A stretch of DNA of 64,000 nucleotides from Amycolatopsis bartoniae (lineage in GTDB: Bacteria > Actinomycetota > Actinomycetes > Mycobacteriales > Pseudonocardiaceae): the NCBI RefSeq assembly GCF_014191255.1, contig NZ_JACHWH010000001.1:930001-994000 (forward strand). Direction: 5' to 3'. Shown in pieces: positions 11,572 through 19,241 of this stretch (positions are counted from its first letter, which is position 1; every line of letters starts with the position of its first letter). Made by a program: the position numbers and the translations under genes. The notes beneath the pieces are model-generated. The model was not told the origin of the DNA and ran no database searches. It was given only the letters and a program-made list of their open reading frames with translations.

Positions 11572-13488
11572 TCAGGGGCGGCCGATCACCACGTCGTCGG
11601 TCTTCACGTACGCGACCCGGTGCCCGAACTGGATCTGCACGTAGTTCGTCTGCCCGCGCACCACCACGTGCGTGGTCGGGTCGAACGTCGTCGACCAGTA
11701 GTACTCCGACGGCAGCACCGGCCCCGCGACGTACTTCTGCCCGGCCGCGAAGGTGTACTGCAGTGGCGTCACCGCCTGCGGCGGCACGTTCGCCGGATAC
11801 GCGGCGGCCTCCGGATACGCCCGCCCGTACACCGGCACGCTCGCGAGCCCCGGCTTCGGCGTCACCACCTGGCCCAGCGCGGGCACTGCCGCCGCGCTGC
11901 GGAACCAGCCCTTCTGGCCGAGATACCAGATCGCCGTCCACTCGCCGCTGACCTCGGCGACCGCGTACTGCTGGCCCGTCGACGCGCGGCTGCCCACGTC
12001 GGACACCCCCATCGTCGAAGGTGACCCGTCCGGGTGGAGGCCCAGGTCCTGCAGCAGCGGAGCGTCGTCCCGCGGTTCACTCCGCAGGATGACCTCGGAC
12101 GATCCGCGCAGCGTGCACGCGGCTCCCGCGCTGTCACAGCCGGTGAAGGCGGGCTTGTTGGTCGCGAAGTCCGGCCGGATCGTGACGAGCCCCGTGCTCT
12201 GCCGCGCCCAGCTGCGCAGCGGTGCGCCGAGCAGGTCGAAGTAGTGGCACCAGTCCCAGTAGGGGCCCGGGTCCCAGTGCATGCCCGCGACGGTCGACGG
12301 CAGCGTGCCCGGCACGTTGTCGTGCCCGAGGATGTGCTGCCGGTCCACCGGGATGCCGTACTTGTCGGCCAGGTAGCGCACGAGCTTCGCCGAAGTCCGG
12401 TACATCGCCTCCGTGTACCAGGTGCCCTGCGCGCCGAAGCCCTCGTGCTCGACGCCGATCGACTTCGCGTTGACGTACCAGTTCCCGGCGTGCCAGCCGA
12501 CGTCCTTGGTCAGGATGTGCTGGGCGATGTGGCCGTCGGTGGAGCGCAGCGTGTAGTGCCAGCCGAGGTACGTCGGGTCCTGCACGAGCCCGAGCGCCGT
12601 GTCGTAGGTGCACTCCGTGTCGTGGATGACGATGTGCGTGATCCGCTGGCTCTGCGGGCGCTCGGCCTTGTCGTAGTTGCCGTAGTCGCCGGGGCCGTCG
12701 CCGGTCTGCTGGTACGGCGCGGGAATCCACTCGGCCGACACCCCCGGCGGTGCCTCGACGTCCCCGCGCGGCGACGCGGGCAGGTTCAGCGCGCGGAGCT
12801 GGCCGCGGGCGGGGGAGACGCTGGTGGCGTCGAGGCGCACCGACTGGCCGTCGTCGGTCGTGCGGCTCGTGCCGGTGCTGATGGTGCCGAACACCTCGTC
12901 GGCGAAGAACGCTGCGGCGTCGGAATCGGTGGCGCCGCTGTAGCGCGCGACGGCGCCGTACCAGTCCGCCGGGTTCGAGCTCTTCACGCCCAGCTCCCGC
13001 TGGTACTGCGCGAGAACCGCGGCGCCGCCACGGATGTTCTGCGTCGCGTCCGTGCGCAGCGCCTCGGGGCTCTCGCCGGTGAGCTGTGCGGCGAGGTCGA
13101 CGGTCTGCAGGGCCGGCACCGGCGCGGCTTCCCGCGGCTCGGCCGGGCGGAGGGCGGCGCGGGCGAGGTCGCCGCGCGGGTCCTCGGTGCCCTTGTCGTG
13201 GTGGCTCCCGCCGGCCGCGACGGTCCGCACGTCCGTCAGGTGCATCGGCCCGAAACCGGCGCCCGTGCTCGGCGTGCCGCCGTGGTGGTCCCAGCGGGAC
13301 TCGAGGTACGAGACGCCCAGCAGGACCTGCTCCGGTACGCCGAACTCGGCGGCGGCCGCGGCGAAGGCGCGCTGGCGCGCCTGGTCGGCGGCGACGCTCG
13401 CCCCGGCGATCCCGGGAGCCGCGGCGGCGAGCCCGGCCGTTCCGGCGGCCGCGGCTCTGAGCGCGGTGCGACGGCTTAAGGGGTCCAT
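11572..13488 (-). CDS. Tat-exported N-acetylmuramoyl-L-alanine amidase (amidase_2/PGRP type)
   Basis: A 638-residue secreted cell-wall hydrolase. The N-terminus (DPLSRRTALRAAAAG) is a twin-arginine signal followed by an Ala-rich hydrophobic core. Residues about 45-190 resemble a lytic-transglycosylase-like segment (LLGVSYLESRW, GFGPMHLTD). The amidase_2 zinc domain follows: HIVIHDTECTYD, GWHYTLR, GVEHEGFG, and HILGHDNVPGTLPSTVAGMHWDPG. The C-terminal part carries SH3-like repeats. It is expected to cleave between MurNAc and the stem peptide. The ATG at 13488 has GAGGAG upstream and gives the signal peptide directly. Confidence 0.9.
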   Translation of the reverse strand: MDPLSRRTALRAAAAGTAGLAAAAPGIAGASVAADQARQRAFAAAAAEFGVPEQVLLGVSYLESRWDHHGGTPSTGAGFGPMHLTDVRTVAAGGSHHDKGTEDPRGDLARAALRPAEPREAAPVPALQTVDLAAQLTGESPEALRTDATQNIRGGAAVLAQYQRELGVKSSNPADWYGAVARYSGATDSDAAAFFADEVFGTISTGTSRTTDDGQSVRLDATSVSPARGQLRALNLPASPRGDVEAPPGVSAEWIPAPYQQTGDGPGDYGNYDKAERPQSQRITHIVIHDTECTYDTALGLVQDPTYLGWHYTLRSTDGHIAQHILTKDVGWHAGNWYVNAKSIGVEHEGFGAQGTWYTEAMYRTSAKLVRYLADKYGIPVDRQHILGHDNVPGTLPSTVAGMHWDPGPYWDWCHYFDLLGAPLRSWARQSTGLVTIRPDFATNKPAFTGCDSAGAACTLRGSSEVILRSEPRDDAPLLQDLGLHPDGSPSTMGVSDVGSRASTGQQYAVAEVSGEWTAIWYLGQKGWFRSAAAVPALGQVVTPKPGLASVPVYGRAYPEAAAYPANVPPQAVTPLQYTFAAGQKYVAGPVLPSEYYWSTTFDPTTHVVVRGQTNYVQIQFGHRVAYVKTDDVVIGRP

Positions 13489-13579: not shown

Positions 13580-13613
13580 AAGCCCCTGGTCCCGACGGAA
13601 GGACCAGGGGCTT
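13580..13613 (-). terminator. Terminator of the Cys-rich peptide gene
   Basis: Perfect 13-bp arms (13580-13592 and 13601-13613) with an 8-base loop. On the minus strand the 3' arm runs into TTTCTC. It lies 18 bases past the stop of the 21-residue peptide and separates it from the amidase gene. Confidence 0.8.
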
Positions 13614-13630
13614 CGGAGGCGCTCAGCCGG

Positions 13631-13696
13631 TCAGCACTTACCGCAGCAACCGCAGGACGAACCGGAGCACGAGCTGCAGCAGTTGCATCCACTCAT
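13631..13696 (-). CDS. 21-residue Cys-rich peptide (metallothionein-like)
   Basis: Reading the minus strand from the ATG at 13696 gives 21 codons and a TGA. Eight residues are cysteine (positions 4, 6, 7, 10, 15, 17, 18 and 21), arranged C-N-CC-SS-C ... C-G-CC-GK-C, with Ser, Gly, Asn and one Lys otherwise. A purine-rich GAAGGGAAGG precedes the start by about 8 bases. A -10-like TACCTT lies about 44 bases upstream, and a perfect terminator hairpin follows the stop. This self-contained transcription unit argues that it is a real gene. Thiol-rich peptides of this composition usually bind Cu(I), Zn(II) or an Fe-S cluster; a metal-buffering role is inferred. I do not recognise the family. Confidence 0.7.
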   Translation of the reverse strand: MSGCNCCSSCSGSSCGCCGKC

Positions 13697-13739
13697 GTGG
13701 AGAACACCTTCCCTTCGGGTTCTGCCCGGGCCGCCACTC

Positions 13740-13773
13740 AAGGTAGGCAGCGGTCCGGGTGACCCGGAACCGC
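13740..13773 (-). promoter_or_regulatory. Promoter and palindrome upstream of the Cys-rich peptide
   Basis: TACCTT (minus strand, 13745-13740) is a plausible -10 box. A 24-bp near-palindrome at 13750-13773 (GCGGT.CCGGG / CCCGG.ACCGC) covers the -35 position, so a repressor bound there would block the promoter. Confidence 0.45.
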
Positions 13774-13965
13774 TCAACGAGTGACGGGCGTTGACGGCAC
13801 GTCACAACAGTTCCGCTCTGCGGGACAGCTTTCGGTCGCGCCGAGCAGGGTTTCCCGCACCCGGGGCAGGGGCGCGTGGACGAGACCGGCGTGTTCGGCG
13901 GAGCATCTTCACCCGTCCGAGTAAGCCCACTTCACGGCCTCTCCAGAGAGCGGAACGGACCCTCC

Positions 13966-14107: not shown

Positions 14108-16097
<1,990 letters not shown>

Positions 16098-16236: not shown

Positions 16237-16539
16237 CTACTGGCCGGAAAGACTCAGTTCCCGCTTGCCGTTCTTGAGAATGCTCTCCCGTTCGGACTCC
16301 GAGAGCCCGCCCCAGATCCCGTAGGGCTCGTGCACGGCCAGTGCGTGCTCACGGCACATCCGCAGGACCGGGCACGTCTGGCAGATCGCCTTCGCCCTGG
16401 CCTCGCGGCGGGCCCTGGCCGGTCCCCGCTCGCCGTCCGGGTGGAAGAACGCCGCGCTGTCCATCCCTCGGCAGGACCCCTCCAGCTGCCAGTCCCAGAT
16501 GTCGGCGTTGGGGCCTGGAAGCCTCCGCGTGTCTGCCAT
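16237..16539 (-). CDS. whiB3: WhiB-family Fe-S regulator, WhiB3/WhiD type
   Basis: A 100-residue Wbl protein. Four cysteines (C23, C53, C56, C62) can hold a redox- and NO-sensitive [4Fe-4S] cluster, and GIWGG at 74-78 is the turn that contacts sigma region 4. The N-terminal LPGPNADIWDWQLEG..CRGMDS and FFHPDGERG closely match mycobacterial WhiB3, the orthologue of Streptomyces WhiD. Its position beside groEL1 and the BldM-like and SigD genes matches both genera. GGAGG lies 9 bases before the ATG at 16539. These proteins act at promoters together with the primary sigma factor. Confidence 0.95.
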   Translation of the reverse strand: MADTRRLPGPNADIWDWQLEGSCRGMDSAAFFHPDGERGPARARREARAKAICQTCPVLRMCREHALAVHEPYGIWGGLSESERESILKNGKRELSLSGQ

Positions 16540-18644: not shown

Positions 18645-19241
18645 GTGACTACGGTCTTGATCTGCGACGACCGACGCAGTGTCCGCGAAGGGCTCACCCG
18701 CGTGATGTCTGCTGTCCCCGGCGTCAGTCGCATCGACTGCGTAGCGCACGGTGACGAGTTGCTGGCCAGGTATTCGCGGCAGCCCGTGGACGTCGTCCTC
18801 GTCGGCACCCAGCGCGCGATGCCGGCCGGGGTGGAGGCGACTCGGCGGCTGGTGTCCGCCAATCCCCAGGCGAACGTGATCGTCTTCGGCGCTCCCGACG
18901 ATGCCAGCAGCATCGCCGCGGCCATCGCCGGTGGCGCTCGCGGTTACCTGCGGTGGGACGCCTCTCGCCCCGAGCTCGTGGCCGCGCTCGCACACACGCT
19001 CGCCAGTACGTCGGTCCCGGCGCCGCGCCAGCCCGCGGATCCCGGTGTCCAGCTCACCGAGCGGGAGCTGCAGGTGCTGCGGGGGATGAGCCAGGGGAAG
19101 AGCAACGGCCAGATCGGCCGCGAGCTCTATCTCTCGGAGGACACCGTGAAGACGCACGCGCGGCGGCTGTTCCGCAAGCTCGGCGTCCGGGACCGCGCCC
19201 AGGCGGTCGCGCACGGGTTCCGCCGCGGCCTCGTCTCCTGA
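18645..19241 (+). CDS. bldM: Atypical LuxR-type response regulator, BldM-like
   Basis: 198 residues: a receiver domain (1-120) and a LuxR/FixJ helix-turn-helix (about 132-195; LTERELQVLRGMSQGKSNGQIGRELYLSEDTVKTHARRLFRKLG in two pieces). The C-terminal half closely follows Streptomyces BldM, which is the neighbour of whiD there as here. The acidic pair D8-D9 is present, but the phosphoacceptor position 54 is Gly (VVLVGTQRAMP), so it cannot be phosphorylated in the usual way. BldM-type proteins act as homodimers or with WhiI in development. The start is GTG 18645 with AAGGAA upstream. No sensor kinase is adjacent. Confidence 0.85.
   Translation: MTTVLICDDRRSVREGLTRVMSAVPGVSRIDCVAHGDELLARYSRQPVDVVLVGTQRAMPAGVEATRRLVSANPQANVIVFGAPDDASSIAAAIAGGARGYLRWDASRPELVAALAHTLASTSVPAPRQPADPGVQLTERELQVLRGMSQGKSNGQIGRELYLSEDTVKTHARRLFRKLGVRDRAQAVAHGFRRGLVS

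Follow-up and report, generated by a model that had tools for sequence, protein, structure and literature searches.

An eight-cysteine peptide gene with a conserved promoter element across Pseudonocardiaceae: probably a minimal metallothionein-like peptide

Background

Is an open reading frame of 21 codons, eight of them for cysteine, a gene in its own right, and if so, what might its product do? The question is raised by a 64,000-nucleotide stretch of the Amycolatopsis bartoniae genome (the window, in what follows), for which an earlier note had proposed such a gene from the letters alone. Because gene callers miss genes of 21 codons, a peptide of most genomes in a major antibiotic-producing family may have been overlooked.

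Results

The peptide gene

The frame is present as the earlier note described it, with Cys making up 8 of its 21 residues (38.1%, given there as 38 percent); the coordinates of this and the other features are collected in Table 1. The peptide contains two CC steps, two C-x-C steps and no aromatic residue, which is the composition expected of a metallothionein; some of its extended homologues have F or Y ahead of the Cys core. Its double C-x-CC-xx-C pattern is found a single time in the window and not at all in 100 shuffles, and at the window's TGY frequency the expectation is 4.7e-6 per 7.76-Mb genome. Among the 1125 ORF starts in the window that give 15 to 60 amino acids, this peptide has the highest Cys share. 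The purine-rich stretch upstream of the ATG, a putative ribosome-binding site, has a counterpart in relatives, for example gaagggatggtg in L006.

The window peptide had no matches among PHROGs or PDB sequences, a search of low power at such a length, and two peptides of the family matched no Pfam-A or NCBIfam family at E<=10, power again being low at 21 to 22 residues. Rfam gave no matches in the window, and searches of open-licence literature listed no publication on this peptide family. We do not assign the peptide to any named metallothionein family, and it may be previously undescribed.

Table 1. Positions of the peptide gene, its associated elements and neighbours in the window, and of the module-bearing proteins in viral contigs
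Feature	Position	Strand	Remark
Peptide gene MSGCNCCSSCSGSSCGCCGKC	13631..13696	minus	21 codons + stop; ATG 13696-13694, stop 13631-13633
Putative ribosome-binding site GAAGGGAAGGTG	13705..13716	minus	purine-rich; putative role
-10 hexamer TACCTT	13740..13745	minus	TANNNT kept in relatives
Palindrome CCGGGTCACCCGG	13755..13767	none	not conserved
Conserved promoter element TCACTCGTTGAGCGGT	13769..13784	minus	consensus TCACYC-N4-RGYGGT; putative regulator site
Terminator-like hairpin	13580..13613	minus	fold energy against shuffles
N-acetylmuramoyl-L-alanine amidase (Amidase_2)	11572..13488	minus	neighbour; outside the system
groES (Cpn10)	14108..14401	plus	neighbour; divergent; outside the system
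Viral module protein, L254	1215-5783		
Viral module protein, L255	886-3039		
Viral module protein, L256	3452-4585		
Viral module protein, L284	4368-5156		
Viral module protein, L285	840-1940		

Spread of the family

We built a profile from 37 cores and searched 297 genomes of the window's taxonomic family, Pseudonocardiaceae, at a cut-off of E<=0.1. The profile matched 213 of the 297 genomes, in 43 of the 46 genera, and gave no match in the other 84; the peptide itself was read in 82 of the matched genomes. BLAST with the window peptide gave matches in 49 of the 297 genomes, and one BLAST place (L327, in G043) was rejected as a chance match in another frame. All 30 of the loci that we fetched have the spacing C-x-CC-xx-C-4-C-x-CC-xx-C.

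A search at the level of the order (298 genomes) gave 46 matches, of which 42 fell in the same taxonomic family and the other four were partial and weak. At the level of the class (296 genomes) there were nine matches besides the window's own genome, and at the level of the phylum (376 genomes) two, all of them weak and partial. A DNA pattern scan of the whole collection found at least 118 loci, and nearly all of the 587 positions listed were TGC repeats. When peptides with more than nine Cys or a stop were dropped, 11 loci were left among the matches listed. Five of these are short family peptides (L058, L103, L117, L119 and L133), from Lentzea, Kibdelosporangium, Amycolatopsis and, twice, Saccharothrix, four genera that belong to one family, Pseudonocardiaceae; the other six were repeats or pieces of other ORFs, and we rejected them. 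A tblastn search of plasmid and phage record collections, in which the low-complexity filter may hide some matches, gave none.

As a less circular test of conservation, we also started from groES rather than from the peptide. In 14 of 19 genomes of the window's genus the peptide lies within 1.5 kb upstream, and all 14 carry the exact promoter element at the peptide. Two of the remaining five have the peptide elsewhere (G263, where the contig ends, and G198, about 3 kb away), and the profile search at E<=0.1 gave no match in G234, G242 and G249, which belong to the same genus. Given how many genomes of the family have no match, these three among them, the peptide is dispensable. The gene is present twice or three times in several genomes (L264, L266, L267, L268 and L270).

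Sequence constraint and variants

Over 37 aligned cores the eight Cys, G12 and G16 are all invariant, an invariance that is partly built in because many cores were chosen by their Cys pattern. The same caveat applies to the Cys codons of 64 distinct DNA cores (447 TGC against 65 TGT) and to the pN/pS of 0.289 over those cores. Codon-level conservation of Cys in close relatives, on which the earlier note had made its proposal depend, was checked in this way and holds. The residues between the Cys vary across cores, and the N-terminus varies as well while the Cys core stays constant: in 43 of 69 distinct copies an ATG lies at most four codons from the first Cys, in 25 the nearest ATG is 6 to 16 codons ahead of it, and one copy has none within 21 codons.

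His replaces the first Cys, Cys4, in ten loci, all from one genus (L283 and L313-L321; for example MHGCCSKCTGQGCGCCGNCN), where the promoter element is still of the same type, at 0 to 3 mismatches. One genome (L325) has CC-x-C instead of C-x-CC and retains eight Cys. If these residues are ligands, their number is kept while position varies, which is what a metal site would allow; such variation is predicted neither by a leader that counts codons nor by a thioether natural product. In L283, L313-L317, L319 and L320 a basic-hydrophobic N-terminal stretch (MIKRLLKVVLRHG...) stands ahead of the His-for-Cys core, and is perhaps membrane- or nucleic-acid-binding.

A promoter element of the peptide gene

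The earlier note credited the gene with its own -10 box and a palindrome over the -35 region. The -10 box is where it was said to be. The palindrome is present too, but it is not conserved within the genus (for example, in L008 and L010), and for that reason we ruled it out as an operator. A different element is conserved, lying mostly beyond position 13773, where the earlier note had ended the gene. We searched 70 distinct upstream regions for a composite of this element and, 22 or 23 nt further on, TANNNT, allowing one mismatch at most, and found it in 51. The 19 regions from which it is absent comprise 17 extended forms and two second copies of the gene; several still have a close element, and the two second copies have no element at the usual place.

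A similar search of the window and 20 context loci (888,508 positions) gave 21 matches, and 19 of these fall at the peptide. When the pattern was tightened, each of five genomes from four genera had one site with at most one mismatch, which was the peptide's own; there were three further sites with two mismatches, as against seven with a reversed-pattern control. In the window's own genome, the loose motif has 25 sites, and only at the peptide's is there a TANNNT 22 to 23 nt on. The gene of an APC-type transporter was considered as co-regulated and rejected, its TANNNT being 25 nt after the element, which looks like chance. Because the genome-wide motif searches gave peptide-only sites, the element looks dedicated to the peptide gene. 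It is likely to be a regulator's site over and upstream of the -35 position, a placement that suggests an activator or a repressor. To our knowledge, it resembles no metalloregulator site.

In several genera the upstream regions (L011-L026) share another conserved sequence, near TCACATAGCGRAATCGGCAT and some 22 bp ahead of the element; this is possibly a second binding site.

Downstream hairpin and neighbouring genes

The earlier description of a perfect terminator is partly right. The hairpin stem has 13 Watson-Crick pairs, or 15 counting two G-U pairs, and folds at -35.5 kcal/mol, compared with a mean of -23.1 for shuffled sequences, only 1 of 200 of which was as good. The U tract is short and weak, and a scan for canonical terminators found none. 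Across 44 contexts, the downstream hairpin beats all 20 shuffles in 35. Together with the many matching genomes, the shared Cys spacing and the conserved promoter element, its presence in most contexts bears out the claim of a self-contained gene with unannotated homologues.

A script scored the next gene as convergent in 33 of the 44 contexts, and approximately 31 remain once the window and L170, in both of which the amidase-type ORF overlaps, are corrected; in the window the next gene is the amidase, which is co-directional. The layout is monocistronic in most contexts. Over 20 context loci, 5 named loci and the window, the neighbours differ between genera. The ten that we scanned with Pfam were a TAP-like hydrolase, an FMN reductase, an IclR regulator, a dehydrogenase (zinc-type), an SBF symporter, a LuxR-type ATPase, a binding protein, a CBM2 protein, an acyl-CoA dehydrogenase and one unmatched protein. 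No metal-transport or metal-regulator gene is among the named neighbours, which are heterogeneous; no RiPP modification enzyme is among the ten, and no neighbouring enzyme or transporter is constant across the context loci. Varied neighbours, a next gene that is mostly convergent and the downstream hairpin therefore suggest a stand-alone unit that acts in trans.

Cpn10 and Amidase_2 matches confirm that the gene lies between groES and a cell-wall amidase. However, groES/groEL adjoin the peptide gene in only 7 of the 20 context loci plus the window, and we ruled out this co-location as a functional clue: the groES/amidase setting is local to the window's genus and one other in which it was seen, and therefore says nothing about function. 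A WhiB-type regulator gene lies after groEL on the opposite strand, at positions 16237-16539 of the window. ARAGORN reports a single tRNA-Thr (ggt) at 18818-18896, overlapping a regulator ORF (18645-19241), and this is possibly a false call.

Eight-Cys modules in viral contigs

Two scans of viral contigs found five contigs that encode a protein with an embedded eight-Cys module, similar to GCxCCxxC(S/T)GPxCGCCxxC. The GC content of the contigs ranges from 0.335 to 0.693. At least two of the five proteins are clear head proteins: that of L254 is a portal-MuF-RNA-ligase fusion, and that of L255 is a Mu-like protease. Those of L256 and L284 weakly resemble head maturation proteases (E 0.0038 and 0.0015), and that of L285 had no match. 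The exact Cys spacing of the peptide is found in L254 and L256; the first half differs in L255 and in L284/L285. The viral and cellular modules may be related by common descent or may have converged.

Discussion

Proposed function

The peptide is probably best read as a minimal, metallothionein-like metal-thiolate peptide under dedicated control, serving as a metal buffer or sink. The earlier suggestion of a minimal metallothionein or cluster-binding peptide fits the sequence, with its eight Cys, its CC and C-x-C steps and the Cys-to-His replacement in ten loci. We infer that the peptide binds metal and that it is cytoplasmic, no secretion signal being seen in the short form. The stand-alone gene would then yield a peptide of 20 to 36 residues in the cytoplasm, whose two C-x-CC-xx-C half-sites, linked through four residues that include a conserved Gly, would fold around a metal-thiolate cluster. 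The ligands would be eight thiolates, or seven and a His. A regulator acting at the promoter element would raise expression on metal or thiol stress. For the metal, our first guess is Cu(I), with Zn(II) or Cd(II) nearly as likely. Cu(I) is preferred because fungal thioneins with a comparable number of Cys take up about six of these ions: those with seven Cys bind 5.8-6 Cu(I) (PMC13107397), which also makes metal-thiolate chemistry plausible at this peptide size.

We think it unlikely that an iron-sulfur cluster sits between the two C-x-CC-xx-C halves, or that the thiols are oxidised to disulfides and reduced again so as to sense or buffer oxidants. The division of the eight Cys into two equal halves, with an invariant Gly beside Cys, would suit such a role, and two of the sampled neighbours in other genera, the FMN reductase and the zinc-type dehydrogenase, are oxidoreductases, a weak hint that is offset by other sampled neighbours unrelated to redox. 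His at the first Cys position suits a metal ligand better than a redox thiol, although His-ligated Fe-S clusters exist. We know of no free-standing Fe-S protein of 21 residues, which also counts against this explanation.

It seems to us distinctly improbable that the peptide is an adaptor, folding into a very small Zn-Cys8 module and binding another protein, as the copies embedded in phage proteins might. Similar modules do occur in the five viral-contig proteins, over a GC range of 33-69% and including at least two head proteins (portal-MuF and Mu-like protease), but the residues between the Cys vary, and the likeness of phage and cellular modules may be convergence.

We give still less credence to a ribosomal natural product or secreted disulfide-rich peptide, in which the core would be modified after synthesis (by thioether or disulfide) and the 3 to 13 extra N-terminal residues of some genera would be its leader. 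The variable N-terminus ahead of a constant Cys core, with the ATG 6 to 16 codons from the first Cys in the longer copies rather than 3 to 4, has the look of such a precursor. In the 43 copies with a close ATG, however, the N-terminus is too short for a leader, no enzyme or transporter is a constant neighbour in the 20 context loci plus the window, near-family-wide presence in single copy is unlike that of natural-product clusters, and the Cys-to-His swap argues against it as well.

The alternative that is best excluded, and to our minds hardly credible, is a Cys-responsive attenuator, a leader ORF whose Cys codons would stall the ribosome at low cysteine and thereby set the expression of an operon behind it. 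The many Cys codons with a hairpin after them, and in the window a co-directional amidase gene, recall the polycysteine uORFs described for mycobacteria (PMC4633059, PMC9031893). Attenuation is disfavoured because the next gene is mostly convergent and differs between genera, the window peptide has at most two contiguous Cys codons, and fixed spacing, invariant Gly and Cys-to-His are constraints beyond a count of Cys.

If the peptide does bind metal as proposed, bacteria would encode in it about the smallest natural metal-thiolate cluster protein, one that lends itself to synthesis, and the single-target promoter would offer a route to a new regulator. The modules in phages point to a minimal domain for metal binding that is portable. 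More tentatively, then, the peptides may form a near family-wide class of the shortest encoded bacterial metallothioneins (20 to 21 residues, eight ligands), with a single-target promoter element and with the same kind of module, as a portable minimal metal-cluster domain, in the head proteins of unrelated phages.

Comparison with known systems

Fungal Cu-thioneins of the Neurospora crassa / Agaricus bisporus type are likewise very short, with seven Cys to the peptide's eight. Their spacers are Gly, Ser, Asn and Lys, as in the peptide, whereas their spacing is based on C-x-C rather than on C-x-CC-xx-C twice. They are eukaryotic, and we claim no homology.

SmtA and the Pseudomonas metallothioneins are also Cys-rich metal-thiolate proteins, to which the eight-Cys peptide has no profile match. 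At about 50 residues or more they are longer, and they combine a zinc-finger fold with several His. A Pseudomonas metallothionein shows a Zn3Cys9His cluster (PMC7387436).

MymT is, like the peptide, a small unannotated Cys-rich actinobacterial protein; it is more than twice as long. Its Cys pattern differs from that of the peptide, and its promoter is of the RicR type. MymT is a mycobacterial copper metallothionein of 4.9 kDa involved in copper resistance (PMC7558416). By description the two appear to differ, and the window peptide has no Pfam or NCBIfam match.

The leaderless polycysteine uORFs of mycobacteria are, like the peptide gene, short Cys-rich ORFs of actinobacteria. They combine contiguous Cys codons with a co-directional operon, whereas in most contexts what comes after the peptide gene is a hairpin and then a gene in convergent orientation.
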